NCBI GenBank assembly: GCA_026982565.1
Contig: JALSGV010000014.1
Span: 1 to 32,254, forward strand
Direction: 5' to 3'
Length of the DNA: 32,254 bases
Source of the DNA: Gammaproteobacteria bacterium
GTDB taxonomy: Bacteria; Pseudomonadota; Gammaproteobacteria; SZUA-140
Made by a program: the position numbers and the translations under genes. Below, piece by piece: positions 424 to 17,827 of this stretch (position 1 is its first letter; each line of letters begins with the position of its first letter). The notes beneath the pieces are model-generated. The model ran no database searches and was not told the origin of the DNA. It was given only the letters and a program-made list of their open reading frames with translations.

Positions 424-2121
424 TCACGACGCACCCCGCCGCATCAAGGCCAGGAAAGCGGCTGGATCGGCCGCCCTGATAAAGTAGCGGGGATAGTCTC
501 GTCCCGCGTATAAATCCTCCTTGAGCGTACCAGCGGCATCCAGAACATAAATACGCGGCACATAATCGCCATCGAGGGCATAACGCCCATTGAGCGCCTC
601 CTCCTCATCGGCATTGACGCGGATCATGATGAAACCATCCGACGCCTCGACGACCCTGCGGTCATAGAAAATTTTCTTATAGGCGTGACAGGTGGGACAC
701 CATTCGGCATAGAAAACCATGAGAATGGGCTTGTCTTGCGCCGCGGCCGCCGCGATGCCGCTGTCATGGTCATACCAATGTATAGCGGCATCATTCCAGT
801 CCGGCTTGCCACCGTCGTGCCGCGCATCAGGCCTTTTCGATAGCAGCGAGGGTGATGCCTGCGGGATGCCAGTTGGCAATTTGATTGTCTCTGCGCCCGG
901 CGTCAAGGGAAAGGTCTGTTCATAGAGGGTAAATGGTGTTTTCCGCGTATGCGCCAGGGCCTCCTCGATGTAGGCGCGTCCTTTGCCCCCCCGCCCCTGG
1001 GCAAGGTAGTTTTCGTAGAACCGGGTATAGAAATGATCGGGGTGGACGACGATCTCCACCCTGAGCTGCTGTCCGGCTTCCTGCATCACCTCTGCGTAGG
1101 AAATTACCAGGGAATTACCCGGCGGAATACGGGTATCATAGATTTCCCGGGACAAATCGGGGGTTGCCTCTCTTCCGATAATGGCTTCCTGTAAGGTGCC
1201 GGGATAACGCTCCCCCTTTTCATTGACAAGATAACCGCGTACGAAAATCTTGGGTGTCATGTAAGTGGGAAAATAATGCCCCGTGCCGGTGTTGGCAATG
1301 GTGACCCTGGCGAGGATGCGCTCACCCGGCCGATATGATTGCCGTTCGAGAGCAACCGATATGGTGACGCCCTTTTTCACCATCTCCGGATCGTGGATAC
1401 CACGCCAGACATGGCGCCGTTCCGGCATATGGCAGGTCTGGCACTGAATCCCCAACGCAGGATAAGGGCTTGCCTTCCATTCCTCATAGGTATTCTCGAT
1501 CAGCTTGCCATTGAGGGCATAATCATCCGCTTCGAACTGGTGGCATCCGGCGCAGAAGGCCGATTTGCTGAAGGCTGTTTCCGCTGTGAAGCCATCATGA
1601 GGCAGCCCCTCATCGATCTTCCCCGCCTCACCTGGCATGCGCGTGCGAGGCGGGCCATATCGCCGGTGCTGCCTGACATGACAACCCGCACAAATGAGCC
1701 CCTGCCGCTGTAATCCCGGATCGAAGGCATGATTCTTACGGAAACCTCCCGACTCGTCCGCCAGCACATCCTGCTGCTCTGCATTGGGTGTATGACAGGA
1801 CCAGCACGTGCGCGCCGTTTCAGGGTCCTTCTGAACCATTTCAAGCAATTGCCCCAGCACCCCCGGCCCCATGGTCCTGCTATGGAGGCTGCTCTGCCAA
1901 TCCTGGTATTGCCGGGGATGGCAGACGCCACAGTCACCAGGAGCCAGAGAAGTTTCTAGCTCGGAATATGCGCCCGGCGGGGGGCCCTGCAGGGGAATGA
2001 TATCCGGCCAGTGCTGTGTCAAAAACTGCTGTTCATGGGCTGTCAGCAGATCGCCCTCCACTGCCGACGCATCGAGGGAGAACAACAGGAAAAGCACGGC
2101 AATACCCTGTCTGTACATCAT
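424..2121 (-). CDS. Exported five-heme cytochrome c with C-terminal thioredoxin-like domain
   Basis: Predicted periplasmic electron-transfer protein of 565 residues from the ATG at 2121. This start is preferred to an upstream GTG at 2175 because it opens directly into a signal peptide (MMYRQGIAVLFLLFSLDASA). Five CXXCH heme sites follow: CGVCH (64-68), CWSCH (106-110), CAGCH (144-148), CAGCH (190-194) and CQTCH (227-231). Residues about 250-370 look like a beta-rich domain (NTGTGHYFPT). The C-terminal ~110 residues form a thioredoxin fold with FYAEWCPTC (WCPTC at 474-478) and a cis-Pro region (YVPRIY). The N-terminal part resembles the cytochrome c554-like multiheme group. WCPTCH also fits CXXCH, but its thioredoxin context argues for a redox disulfide. 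No clear ribosome site is visible. The partner and substrate are unknown. Confidence 0.85.
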   Translation of the reverse strand: MMYRQGIAVLFLLFSLDASAVEGDLLTAHEQQFLTQHWPDIIPLQGPPPGAYSELETSLAPGDCGVCHPRQYQDWQSSLHSRTMGPGVLGQLLEMVQKDPETARTCWSCHTPNAEQQDVLADESGGFRKNHAFDPGLQRQGLICAGCHVRQHRRYGPPRTRMPGEAGKIDEGLPHDGFTAETAFSKSAFCAGCHQFEADDYALNGKLIENTYEEWKASPYPALGIQCQTCHMPERRHVWRGIHDPEMVKKGVTISVALERQSYRPGERILARVTIANTGTGHYFPTYMTPKIFVRGYLVNEKGERYPGTLQEAIIGREATPDLSREIYDTRIPPGNSLVISYAEVMQEAGQQLRVEIVVHPDHFYTRFYENYLAQGRGGKGRAYIEEALAHTRKTPFTLYEQTFPLTPGAETIKLPTGIPQASPSLLSKRPDARHDGGKPDWNDAAIHWYDHDSGIAAAAAQDKPILMVFYAEWCPTCHAYKKIFYDRRVVEASDGFIMIRVNADEEEALNGRYALDGDYVPRIYVLDAAGTLKEDLYAGRDYPRYFIRAADPAAFLALMRRGAS

Positions 2122-2374: not shown

Positions 2375-2551
2375 TATTAACCCGGCAATAATATATATCG
2401 TATTCAGGACTTCAGGCCTGCGCTGGAACAAGGCGCGGTGCGCAGGCAATGGTGATTCCATTGGCAAGCGCCGCAACGCCGTGCCGGCGCAGGCCTGAAG
2501 TCCCTGGCAGATTGAAATCAAAGGACAGGCCATTGCGCGCCGGGTTTATAA
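2375..2551. repeat. Composite inverted-repeat element (modules A and B), MITE-like
   Basis: Two perfect 17-bp arms (GGACTTCAGGCCTGCGC at 2407-2423 and its reverse complement at 2487-2503) flank a 63-nt loop. Outside the arms lie module A, inverted (2375-2416), and module B (2518-2543). The outer ends are also inverted relative to each other: TTAACCCGGC on the left and GCCGGGTTTA on the right. Module A recurs at 14899-14940 with 40 of 42 bases identical, and module B at 16485-16510 with 25 of 26 identical. It is therefore an interspersed intergenic repeat, not a chance hairpin. No coding capacity. Whether it is a mobile element, a processed RNA structure or a promoter module cannot be decided here. 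Confidence 0.7.
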
Positions 2552-2590: not shown

Positions 2591-3856
2591 ATGACAAAAA
2601 AAAATGCCTTTTATGCCCAGTCCGGGGGGGTTACGGCAGTCATCAACGCCACTGCCTGCGGGGTGATCGAAACAGCACGCCAGCACAAAGACAAGATCGG
2701 CAAGGTCTACGCCGGCCGTAATGGCATCATCGGCGCGCTGACTGAAGATCTCATCGATACCAGCAGGGAATCCGCCAGGACCATCGCCGCCCTGCGTCAC
2801 ACCCCGTCCGGCGCCTTCGGCTCCTGCCGTTACAAGCTCAAGGGGCTGGAAGAGAACCGGCGCGAATATGAGCGCCTCATCGCCGTCTTCGAGGCCCACA
2901 ACATCGGCTATTTCTTCTACAACGGCGGCGGCGATTCCGCCGATACCTGCCTCAAGGTTTCCCAGCTCTCGGAACGTCTCGGCTATCCCATCCAGGCCAT
3001 CCATGTACCCAAGACGGTGGATAACGACCTGCCCATCACCGACAACTGCCCCGGCTTCGGCTCGGTGGCGAAATACATTGCCATTTCCACCCTGGAGGCC
3101 AGTTACGACGTCGCCTCCATGTCCAAAACCTCCACCAAGGTATTCGTGCTGGAGGTCATGGGACGCCACGCGGGCTGGATCGCCGCCGCCGGCGGCATGG
3201 CCTCTACAGAGCAAGATGAATTGCCCATCGTCATCCTCTTCCCGGAGGTCGCCTTCCAGAAAAAACGCTTTCTGGACAAAGTGAAAGCAATGGTGAAGGA
3301 ACACGGATACTGCTCCGTGGTGGTATCGGAGGGCGTGCGCGGCCGGGATGGCAAATTCCTTGCCGACCAGGGCCTGCGGGACGCCTTCGGCCATGCCCAG
3401 TTGGGTGGTGTGGCCCCGGTGGTGGCCAATATCATCAAGCAAGGCCTGGGCTACAAATATCACTGGGGCGTCGCCGATTATCTGCAGCGCGCCGCGCGCC
3501 ATATCGCCTCCAAAACCGATGTGGAACAGGCCTACGCCATGGGCAAGGCGGCGGTACAGTTCGCGCTGCAGGGGCACAATTCCGTCATGCCCACCATTGT
3601 TCGGGCCTCAAACAAACCCTATCGCTGGAAGGTGGGCATGGCCCCCCTCAAGAAGGTGGCCAACGTGGAAAAGATGATGCCCAAGAGCTTCATCAGCCGC
3701 GACGGCTTCGGCATTACCAAGAAATGCCGCGACTACCTGGCGCCACTGATCCGCGGGGAAGACTATCCGCCCTACCGCGATGGCCTGCCCCGTTACGTCA
3801 GGCTGAAGAATGTGGCCGTAAAGAAGAAATTGAATACCAGCTTCAAGGTCAAATAG
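2591..3856 (+). CDS. pfp: PPi-dependent 6-phosphofructokinase
   Basis: Cytoplasmic enzyme interconverting fructose 6-phosphate + PPi and fructose 1,6-bisphosphate + Pi, reversibly. The ATG at 2591 is chosen because a strong purine-rich ribosome site (GAGGGAGGG) lies just before it; a TTG at 2576 is in frame but would include that site. The protein is 421 residues, normal for the family. Diagnostic residues: NGGGDS (111-116), with Asp115 at the position that is Gly in ATP-dependent enzymes, and PKTVDND (140-146), with the Lys141 and Asp144 typical of PPi users. It faces hppA tail to tail across a shared terminator. In autotrophic gammaproteobacteria and methanotrophs this enzyme has been proposed to replace fructose- and sedoheptulose-bisphosphatase in the Calvin cycle while regenerating PPi. 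Confidence 0.95.
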   Translation: MTKKNAFYAQSGGVTAVINATACGVIETARQHKDKIGKVYAGRNGIIGALTEDLIDTSRESARTIAALRHTPSGAFGSCRYKLKGLEENRREYERLIAVFEAHNIGYFFYNGGGDSADTCLKVSQLSERLGYPIQAIHVPKTVDNDLPITDNCPGFGSVAKYIAISTLEASYDVASMSKTSTKVFVLEVMGRHAGWIAAAGGMASTEQDELPIVILFPEVAFQKKRFLDKVKAMVKEHGYCSVVVSEGVRGRDGKFLADQGLRDAFGHAQLGGVAPVVANIIKQGLGYKYHWGVADYLQRAARHIASKTDVEQAYAMGKAAVQFALQGHNSVMPTIVRASNKPYRWKVGMAPLKKVANVEKMMPKSFISRDGFGITKKCRDYLAPLIRGEDYPPYRDGLPRYVRLKNVAVKKKLNTSFKVK

Positions 3857-14782: not shown

Positions 14783-14898
14783 ATTCATGCAAAGGGAGTT
14801 ATCAATAAGAAAAACCGTCTTTTGCCATAGGGCTGTGCGGCATTCCATGGCTCCCCGTTGCCAGCGCGGACGATGAGCCACTCCCCACTGAGCCACAG

Positions 14899-14940
14899 CC
14901 TGAAGTCCTGAATACGATATATATTGTTGCCGGATTAATA
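14899..14940 (+). repeat. Intergenic repeat, module A, second copy (upstream of thiD)
   Basis: These 42 bases, beginning CCTGAAGTCCTGAATACGAT and ending ATTAATA, match the inverted copy at 2375-2416 at 40 of 42 positions. Similarity stops at both borders. It ends 45 bp before the thiD ATG. Confidence 0.75.
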
Positions 14941-14984: not shown

Positions 14985-15794
14985 ATGACACAACCATCGA
15001 TCCCGGTGGTCGTGACCTTCTCCGGCCACGATCCCTGTGGAGGGGCGGGCATCCAAGCGGATATCGAGACCCTGGCCAGCATGGGCTGCCATGCCGCGCC
15101 GGTCATCACTGCTCACACGGTACAGAACACCCTCGATGTCATTTCCGTCACGCCCGCAGACCCCACCCTGCTCATCCAGCAGGCGCGGGCGATAATGGAA
15201 GACATGGAAGCGGCCGCCTTCAAGATCGGCCTGCTGGCAAACACGGAAATTACCGAGGCTGTCCACAGTCTGCTGGTGGACTATCCCGGCATCCCCGTGG
15301 TGGTGGACCCGGTATTCGCGTCCGGTGGTGGTAAGCGCCTGGTGGACGAGGGCCTGCTCGACGCCATGCGCACCCTGCTGTTGCCTCTCACCACCATCCT
15401 CACACCCAATAGTTTCGAGGCGCGCACCCTTGCCGCGGAGGCCGACAATCTCGACGCCTGCGCCCACAAGCTCATGGACGATGGTTGTGAGTACGTCCTC
15501 ATCACCGGCACCCATGAAAACACACCGGACGTGGAGAACCGTCTCTATGGCAACCGCCGTCTCATGGACACCTACCGCTGGGAGCGGCTTCCCGACCCTT
15601 ATCATGGCTCCGGGTGCACCCTGGCCGCGGCCATCGCGGGCCTGCTGGCCCAGGGCGGAGAGGTTCCGGCGCTGATCGAGGAGGCCCAGGCCTACACCTG
15701 GGAAACGCTGAAACAGGGTTACCGCATCGGCATGGGGCAATACCTGCCCAACCGCCTGTTCTGGGCCGTGGAGGAAGAAGGGGCCGGCCAGTGA
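14985..15794 (+). CDS. thiD: Hydroxymethylpyrimidine / phosphomethylpyrimidine kinase
   Basis: Phosphorylates HMP to HMP-P and then HMP-PP, the pyrimidine precursor of thiamine, in the cytoplasm. The 269-residue ribokinase-fold protein begins with TFSGHDPCGGAGIQADIETL, the substrate-binding N-terminus of the family. It has the C-terminal anion-hole and catalytic region YHGSGCTLAAAIAG, with HGSGCT characteristic of ThiD. The ATG at 14985 has a modest AGCAGG upstream. Its stop overlaps the thiE GTG, so the two are translationally coupled. The upstream repeat module A may include its promoter, but no clean -35/-10 pair is seen. Confidence 0.95.
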   Translation: MTQPSIPVVVTFSGHDPCGGAGIQADIETLASMGCHAAPVITAHTVQNTLDVISVTPADPTLLIQQARAIMEDMEAAAFKIGLLANTEITEAVHSLLVDYPGIPVVVDPVFASGGGKRLVDEGLLDAMRTLLLPLTTILTPNSFEARTLAAEADNLDACAHKLMDDGCEYVLITGTHENTPDVENRLYGNRRLMDTYRWERLPDPYHGSGCTLAAAIAGLLAQGGEVPALIEEAQAYTWETLKQGYRIGMGQYLPNRLFWAVEEEGAGQ

Positions 15795-16420: not shown

Positions 16421-16484
16421 ACTGCCCCAAAGAGGGTGTCGTAAAAGGCAGCTGCGCCGCCTAAAATCACTGACAGAGTCGGAG

Positions 16485-16510
16485 TCAAAGGACAGGCCAT
16501 TGCGTGCCGG
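16485..16510 (+). repeat. Intergenic repeat, module B, second copy (upstream of hemL)
   Basis: These 26 bases, beginning TCAAAGGACAGGCCATTGCG, match 2518-2543 at 25 positions and are followed in both places by a TTAATA/TTTATA-like run. The hemL ATG lies 36 bp downstream; at the other copy the pfp ATG is 47 bp downstream. Confidence 0.7.
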
Positions 16511-16546
16511 TTAATAAAAACACAACGGAAACATCAGGAAACATCC

Positions 16547-17827
16547 ATGACGCAATCCCATGAATTATTCAAAAGCGCCCAGCAGCACATTCCCGGCGGT
16601 GTAAACTCGCCCGTGCGCGCCTTCCATGGCGTGGGCGGCGAACCCGTCTTCATCAAGAGCGGCGCGGGCGCCTATATCACTGACGAAGACGGCAAGGAAT
16701 ACGTGGACTACGTGGCCTCATGGGGTCCCATGATCCTCGGCCATGCCCATCCCGCCGTCATCGAGGCCGTCAAGACGGCCGTCGACAACGGCCTGGGCTT
16801 CGGCGCGCCCACCCAGATCGAGACCGTCATGGCCGACAAGATCTGCGAACTGGTGCCCTCCATCGAAATGGTGCGCATGGTCAACTCGGGCACCGAGGCC
16901 ACCATGAGCGCCATCCGCCTGGCGCGCGCCTACACGGGGCGCGACAAGATCCTCAAGTTCGAGGGCTGCTACCATGGCCATTCCGACTCCCTGCTGGTCA
17001 AGGCCGGCTCCGGGGCCCTGACCCTGGGCGTGCCCACCTCGCCGGGGGTGCCCGTGGCGCTGGCGGAACACACCATCACCGTGTCCTACAACGACCTGGA
17101 AAAGGTGGAAGAGGTTTTCGCCCATGTGGGTGGCCAGATCGCCTGCATCATCGTCGAGCCGGTGGCCGGCAATATGAACTGCATCCCGCCGCAGCCCGGC
17201 TTTCTCGACGGCCTGCGCAAGGTCTGCGACGAATACGGCAGCGTGCTCATCTTCGACGAAGTGATGACGGGCTTCCGTGTCGCCCTGGGCGGCGCCCAGC
17301 AGCGCTACGGCGTGAAGCCGGATCTCACCACCCTGGGCAAGATCATCGGCGGCGGCATGCCCGTGGGCGCCTTCGGCGGGCGCCGCGATATCATGGACAA
17401 GATCGCCCCCCTCGGGCCGGTCTACCAGGCCGGCACCCTGTCGGGCAATCCCGTCGCCATGGCGGCGGGCCTGGCCACGCTGAACGAACTCACCAAGCCG
17501 GATTTCTACGAGGATCTGAGCGCCAAGACCAAGCGCCTCGCCGAGGGCCTGGTGACCCGCGCGCGCGCCTTCAACATCCCCCTGCGCGCCAACTGCGTGG
17601 GCGGCATGTTTGGCCTGTTCTTCACCGAGGAAGAGGAAATCACCAATTTCGACCAGGTGACCCGCTGCAATCTGGACCGCTTCAAGCTGTTCTTCCACGG
17701 CATGCTGGAGCAGGGCGTCTACCTGGCGCCTTCCGCCTACGAGGCCGGTTTCGTCTCCGCCGCCCACGGCCAGGACGAGTTCAAACGCACCCTGATCGCC
17801 GCGGAGCAGGTGTTCTCGCGCCTGTAG
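16547..17827 (+). CDS. hemL: Glutamate-1-semialdehyde 2,1-aminomutase
   Basis: PLP enzyme making 5-aminolevulinate in the C5 tetrapyrrole pathway, which feeds heme and cobalamin synthesis. The 426-residue length is typical. The PLP lysine is Lys265 in [18 protein letters not shown], the cofactor Asp is in [10 protein letters not shown] (Asp237), and the N-terminus [13 protein letters not shown] is diagnostic against other class III aminotransferases. It follows thiE by 126 bp containing repeat module B. The LVIVD protein starts 10 bp after its stop. Heme supply suits a genome with many c-type cytochromes. Confidence 0.97.

Follow-up and report, generated by a model that had tools for sequence, protein, structure and literature searches.

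A 284-bp IS630-type MITE with a conserved double-hairpin core between the genes of a gammaproteobacterium

Repeat copies near pfp, thiD and hemL and the complete element

The window, i.e. the whole stretch of 32,254 nucleotides that was analyzed, belongs to a fragmented gammaproteobacterial MAG (2.64 Mb, 214 contigs, ~91% complete; G000). It carries pfp for diphosphate-fructose-6-phosphate 1-phosphotransferase (2591..3856, +), which lies outside the repeats described below, as well as thiD and hemL. The names given to these genes in the original prediction agree with the models found: the NF010675 subfamily (E 2e-200) for pfp, TIGR00713 (E 6e-191) for hemL and, slightly under the cut-off of the model, TIGR00097 (E 4e-57) as the best one for thiD. 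At 424-1638 (-) the window also encodes a protein that has a thioredoxin-like/TsoB-like C-terminal part and weakly resembles a multiheme (seleno)protein model.

Two short repeats had been noticed before these genes, and both are real. Module A at 2375-2416 (+) shares 40 of 42 positions with 14899-14940 read on the opposite strand, and module B at 2518-2543 shares 25 of 26 with 16485-16510; the chance expectation in the window for pairs this alike is ~2e-12 and ~5e-5, respectively. The perfect 17-bp inverted repeat (2407-2423 with 2487-2503) was likewise recovered, and so were the distances to the start codons: 47 bp from 2543 to the pfp ATG at 2591, 44 bp from 14940 to the thiD ATG at 14985 and 36 bp from 16510 to the hemL ATG at 16547. 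What did not hold is the division into two separate families, as both modules are parts of one 284-bp element, module A comprising its left end and an arm of hairpin 1, and module B its linker and an arm of hairpin 2.

A genome-wide search for copies with window stretch 2368-2564 as the query gave at least 40 near-full matches in G000, nearly all of which start at the left end and run through module B; in many of them a second, inverted left end appears ~80 bp further along. The complete element is 284 bp long, contains no gene and is bordered by ~31-bp terminal inverted repeats (TIRs; TATTAACCCGGCAAC-ATATATATCGTATTC), with TATTAACCCGGCAACAATATATATCGTATTC at one end of the aligned copies and its reverse complement at the other. 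This length was obtained in 34 detections (overlapping loci included), and derivatives of 40, 47, 111, 186, 212, and 441 bp share the ends. In total, 66 module-A sites and, within the 2.64 Mb, 228 end-like sites (first 19 bp, up to 3 mismatches) vs. 0-1 for a reversed control pattern were found; the copy count is a lower bound, with many contigs ending within the element. Copies within one genome are 95.6% identical. None of 30 complete copies was located inside a gene predicted by a simple codon-bias script, although coding sequence makes up 0.86 of the window, so that neither a lack of further copies nor a spread into genes was observed. The repeats belong to a short mobile element without coding capacity, of which at least 100 copies (end-pairs) lie between genes in this bacterium. 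An assembly or binning artefact, with a foreign repeat mixed into the MAG, would agree with the fragmentation and the many contig ends within the repeat, but copies lie inside contigs with ordinary genes on either side, independent MAGs share the element, and either the class I element or its core is present in two single-contig genomes, G147 and G592, which contradicts such an origin and makes it extremely improbable.

Several structural variants were observed. The minimal palindromes of 40-47 bp consist of two ends fused (L159 432-471, L160 416-462, L162 405-444, L172 393-432, L015 799-838, and L129 2447-2486), and the one in L015 has matching changes in both ends (TATCGACCCGG / CCGGGTCGATA). 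Forms of 335 bp contain an extra hairpin (GACAGGATGTCCAAGTGTCGCGAG...) within hairpin 1 (L099 3129-3463; also L103, L131, and L140), and an insert related to it is present in L090 and L149. A second repeat family, CCTGAATCCG(T/C)GGGTTCA...TGAACCCACGGATTCAGG, adjoins several G000 copies (flanks of L028, L055, L059, and L070) and is also found between the two hairpins of a 450-bp element in G083 (L154/L289, G083:C76).

The window copy at 2375..2550 (+) is a 176-bp internal-deletion form of the 284-bp MITE, with the flanking/duplicated TA counted at both ends. It shares 95.3% identity with the reference copy L018 over positions 1-169, followed by the junction to the right terminal repeat. Its left TIR, TATTAACCCGGCAATAATATATATCGTATTC, occupies 2375..2405 (+; TA at 2375-2376), and next to it lies hairpin 1 (2407..2503, +), the stem arms of which form the 17-bp inverted repeat. 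Within this hairpin the conserved core (2425..2485, +) has CAAGGCG at 2429-2435 and, after 38 nt, CAACGC at 2474-2479. Alignment to L018 and 40 genomic copies places the central linker and the 5′ arm of hairpin 2 at 2504..2543 (+). The deletion junction lies at 2539..2550 (+), where GCCGG of module B is fused to the terminal GCCGGGTTTATA. Missing at the junction are 108 bp, which hold the remainder of hairpin 2 together with the inner part of the right terminal repeat; the deletion call is based on full copies, in which ...GCCGGCCCGCTG... and ...TTGCCGGGTTAATA are separated by these 108 bp. Judged from these alignments, hairpin 2 of the window copy is lost via deletion between two GCCGG repeats. 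Copies L004 and L005 have the same junction. The remaining two copies in the window are truncated. Near thiD (14894..14940, -), 44 bp before the gene, one terminal repeat and the hairpin-1 arm (module A) are left, with 95.8% identity over 48 bp to L018 positions 1-48. Near hemL (16459..16516, +), 30 bp before the gene, the linker, module B and a terminal GTTAATA are left, with 84.6% identity over 52 bp to L018 positions 119-169, and the GCCGG-GTTAATA junction is common to this remnant and the copy at 2375..2550.

The original prediction had offered two readings of the repeats, i.e. MITE remnants or mobile promoter/regulatory modules. A regulatory role, with the copies governing the expression of pfp, thiD, and hemL, could be read from the three copies ending 36-47 bp before start codons, and Correia elements do carry promoters (PMC10969869). 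Yet two of the three copies are the truncated remnants, and among 52 element sides genome-wide whose neighboring gene was identified, 30 are turned toward the start of that gene and 22 toward its end, so gene starts are not preferred. The promoter and terminator scan gave none, with no sigma-70-like match in 2300-2640. The GCCGG followed by an AT-rich run is present as described, not as a promoter feature but as the transposon end GCCGGGTTAATA. We therefore consider a regulatory role very unlikely. The MITE reading is borne out more strongly than it was proposed: full-length 284-bp copies are present, their TIRs match, the insertion is at TA, and an IS630 relative shares the ends.

Insertion at TA and a candidate transposase

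Insertion at TA is a mark of IS630/Tc1-mariner transposases. Two empty sites in sister genomes were informative, those in G007, G011 and most of G001 being too diverged to read the duplication. For the filled site L153 in the same-genus G001, the flanks and one dinucleotide align without gaps over 242 bp with the empty place in G000, the dinucleotide there being CA in the present-day genome, not TA. For the G000 copy L161, the counterpart in G001 is an empty TA. These sites fit insertion at TA with TA duplication, and no wider direct repeats beyond TA were seen by eye in the aligned copies.

Thirteen genomes carrying the element were searched for the IS630 transposase family. In G097 (Chromatiales MAG 354-166, the genome of locus L095) we identified L236, an intact IS630-family insertion sequence of 1095 bp with the TIR TATTAACCCGGCAATAAAGAA (21-bp TIR starting TATTAACCCGGCAAT) and a 341-aa transposase (DDE_3, E 1e-40; HTH_33). 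Its outermost 14 bp equal those of the MITE, and the two are alike only across the outer ~14-15 bp. Truncated or decayed IS630 relatives with similar ends are present in G007 and G094. One decayed IS630, L242 (G007:C100), has an end, TATTAATCCGGCAACAAAATATTG, which beyond the outermost 15 bp is nearer to the MITE end than that of the intact insertion sequence in G097. The DDE_3 search revealed no L236-like IS630 transposase in the window's own ~91% complete, fragmented MAG. Two long end pairs were rejected as autonomous elements: L157 (2.18 kb) has unrelated genes between its ends and a right end that is part of a separate 40-bp palindrome, while L147 (3.43 kb) was discarded with gene prediction as the sole check.

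The ends, the insertion at TA and the matching insertion sequence are demonstrated, and we infer that an L236-type enzyme may mobilize the element. The element is probably moved by a borrowed enzyme. In its short length, TIRs, lack of a transposase gene, TA insertion (two sites) and autonomous relative with matching ends (in another genome), it corresponds to MITEs of the IS630/Tc1-mariner type, and, compared with Rfam and openly accessible papers, it appears to be a new family of IS630-type MITE. It resembles RUP, an IS630-derived MITE of Streptococcus pneumoniae, which is short and intergenic, has ~100 copies and a TA target and shares its ends with an IS630-type IS (PMC2229807). However, RUP is 107 bp long with 9-bp TIRs (PMC2229807) vs. 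284 bp and ~31-bp TIRs here and, unlike RUP, the window element has a conserved double-hairpin core common to many genera. Correia/NEMIS elements of Neisseria are likewise TA-flanked and foldable, with long TIRs and two size forms differing by an internal segment; by description they are set apart by another TIR length and host, and no double inverted CAAGGCG hairpin is described for them. Promoter and RNase III roles are demonstrated for Correia/NEMIS and none for the window element. QMITE1 and QMITE2 of Coxiella burnetii are also gammaproteobacterial MITEs (150-400 bp, with size variants down to 39 bp) with long folded transcripts, and some yield sRNAs (PMC5896051); compared by description, they differ in their variable direct repeats of 2-3 or 7-11 nt, which are not TA, and in the GTAG REP of QMITE2 (PMC5896051). 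MITEPsy1 of Pseudomonas syringae, the movement of which was demonstrated in vivo (PMC3189936), has CTAG among its targets, and class II ends in the core loci described below begin with CTAG, but it is 100 bp long, with the TIR GGAAGGTCTGAAAAAGCC and a 4-bp duplication, and probably derives from ISPsy2 (possibly listed as IS5) (PMC3189936).

The folded core and its exchangeable ends

The complete 284-nt element folds at -182 kcal/mol, the other strand being nearly as stable (z -16 vs. shuffles for both), and for the hairpin 1 stretch of the window copy a 177-nt fold gave -91.5 kcal/mol (z -7.7), with compensatory changes across genera in the alignment. An alignment of 19 elements revealed a terminal stem and two hairpins with 104 consensus pairs, 31 of which show pairing-preserving double changes. 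The hairpins are inverted relatives of each other, and each has CAAGGCG, 38 nt in nearly all cases, and CAACGC. In 77 distinct cores, 94.2% of the pair cells were standard vs. 67.4% when shuffled, and double changes were found in 301 vs. 81 cells.

The exact 29-bp end was found in MAGs labeled Sedimenticola, Thiohalobacter, Chromatiales, Thiotrichales, and others, and end-like sites in 6 of the 94 genomes searched, the window's own included; G007 has 49 ends and its congener G011 none. Across genera, the interior of the 284-bp element shows ~73-85% identity to that of L018, the exceptions being a copy in G007 (97%) and one diverged copy (65%); the ends are nearly invariant. No match was detected in E. 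coli, and no near-complete one in plasmids or phages, the sole match being 53 bp in an Azotobacter plasmid, which represents the same hairpin core within other ends, CTAGGGTCTGTTGACG.

A covariance model built from the 61-nt core (R1) scored the window core at 80.4 bits (E 8e-16). In a set of 369 gammaproteobacterial genomes, 97 gave a hit at E ≤ 0.001 per genome, commonly with many loci each; of 398 genomes sampled in the phylum, 47 were positive at 1e-4, and those outside Gammaproteobacteria came from a single further family. This family, f207 (G395-G639), was the only non-gammaproteobacterial one with the core among these genomes, and many of its genomes are positive; its possession of the core suggests transfer between habitats or lineages. 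At the core loci the layout of the window element recurs: another hairpin, in inverted orientation, lies at a distance of ~105 or 123 nt, and most of the elements measure 263-292 bp overall. Their ends fall into unrelated classes: TATTAACCCGGC, CTAGTG..., CTAGGGTCTG..., CTGCCCTTTACCC, TATACCCAAACC, GAGCCTATCTCG, and others. When the same elements were compared pairwise, the ends were 30% identical, i.e. near random, and the cores 67%.

Rfam gave no match in the window and only weak, sub-threshold matches for the full element, and a search of openly accessible papers found none on the core or the terminal sequence. As far as Rfam and this literature show, a core with exchangeable ends is undescribed. 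CIR elements of Caulobacter and Brucella also have two long inverted-repeat arms with a linker and a phylogenetically kept fold, but they are alphaproteobacterial, have no reported TIR and carry the GANTC methylation motif in an arm (PMC2229807). GANTC is not conserved in the window-type core, where the loop varies (GTCATTC, GTGATTC, GTTGCTC, GTAATTC...). REP, REPIN and TIRtron elements, with RAYT or TIRYT transposases, similarly form many intergenic copies of inverted hairpin pairs; they are, however, 20-40 bp long, with GTAG/CGTC tags and HUH tyrosine transposases (PMC3733652), vs. untagged hairpins of ~97 nt with the motif CAAGGCG-38-CAACGC and TA-type DDE ends here. The Y1 model PF01797 gave no hit in G000 and is present in some other core-carrying genomes. 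A link to REPINs or TIRtrons via a hairpin beside a Y1 gene in L322 was discarded, since the hairpin is an insertion: an element of another end class (CTAAGACAAACGATGAC...; ~1233-1502 of L322, G011) appears to split this Y1 (REP-type) transposase gene.

Selection on a single strand and possible function of the core

Among imperfect pairs, G-U outnumbers A-C by 31 to 5 within the middle stem and by 64 to 23 within the outer one; 33 loci had an excess of G-U and 3 of A-C. Hairpins 1 and 2 both show the G-U excess when each is read in the direction of its own motif, i.e. on opposite strands. With one hairpin per genome the counts were 68 vs. 14 (33 genomes vs. 1), figures that carry a small bias because the core set was gathered by a covariance model scoring G-U above A-C, and related genomes are partly dependent. 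Arm copying or a double-stranded cruciform is blind to G-T vs. A-C, since a G-T on one strand reads as A-C on its complement; the excess thus points to folded single strands, on which selection appears, statistically, to act. The fold also appears to be under selection from the recurrence of the core inside different ends in about a quarter of the sampled gammaproteobacterial genomes. A purely selfish palindrome, with functionless hairpins that stay paired only because mutations in one arm are transferred to the other, through template switching within the hairpin or conversion among copies, would explain the 95.6% identity within one genome, and MITEs often form long hairpins of no known function (PMC10969869, PMC2229807). 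Arm copying, however, yields perfect Watson-Crick pairs and gives no cause for a ~5:1 preference for G-U in one orientation, and the core retains its unpaired motif letters and 38-nt spacing where the TIRs change. We judge this alternative unlikely.

Single-stranded DNA, too, tolerates G-T better than A-C, and the pairing data would fit RNA and ssDNA alike, as both strands fold about equally well. REP hairpins are recognized by RAYT, and attC sites by the integron integrase. The core hairpins could similarly act as ssDNA bound by a recombinase or a replication/repair protein, since a strand-symmetric ssDNA substrate would be expected to look like this, with a pair of opposed hairpins that are selected on one strand each; REP dimers are laid out in a similar way (PMC3733652). 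Against this stand the absence of a Y1/RAYT-type transposase gene from the window's own genome in the PF01797 search, the G011 element, which merely interrupts a Y1-type gene, the core motif without a GTAG/CGTC tag, and the ends, which already match a DDE transposon. An ssDNA role of this kind is the chief alternative to RNA and seems rather improbable.

We consider it highly probable that the window feature is a MITE moved in trans by an IS630-family transposase, with an old structured module, selected as a single strand, as its interior. According to this model, the terminal ~14 bp, TATTAACCCGGCAA(C/T), would serve as the recognition site of an IS630-family (Tc1/mariner-type) DDE transposase, which would place the element at a TA and duplicate that TA. 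The element has been amplified in the window's genome to more than 100 end-pairs, the survivors being almost only intergenic, and the window copies represent one internal-deletion derivative and two truncated remnants. The interior consists of two inverted hairpins with the invariant CAAGGCG/CAACGC internal-loop motif, an old structured module borne by many unrelated transposon ends in Gammaproteobacteria and one further family of the phylum. In a read-through transcript a hairpin may stop, cleave or stabilize the message, which would make the insertion harmless to the host; as the hairpins are opposed, either direction of transcription always includes one correctly oriented hairpin. An action as RNA in read-through transcripts is the role that we find most likely for the core, with nearly an even chance of being right, and such RNA effects or transcripts exist for Correia, ERIC and QMITE elements (PMC10969869, PMC5896051). 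It is also conceivable, and we propose it tentatively, that the double-hairpin core is a distinct, undescribed module which has spread by repeatedly adopting the ends of different transposons, in a SINE-like manner, and is selected for a role of its own as a single strand, be it RNA or ssDNA.

A MITE is usually recognized by its ends, whereas what lies between them counts as filler. In the present elements the ends are replaced, but the fold, motif letters and spacing of the interior are retained over dozens of bacterial families, with strand-specific pairing. This inverts the usual picture of a MITE and makes it testable why bacterial MITEs fold, and whether the benefit goes to the element, to the host transcript or to a DNA-processing step. 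The covariance model, absent from Rfam, provides an annotation probe for such elements.
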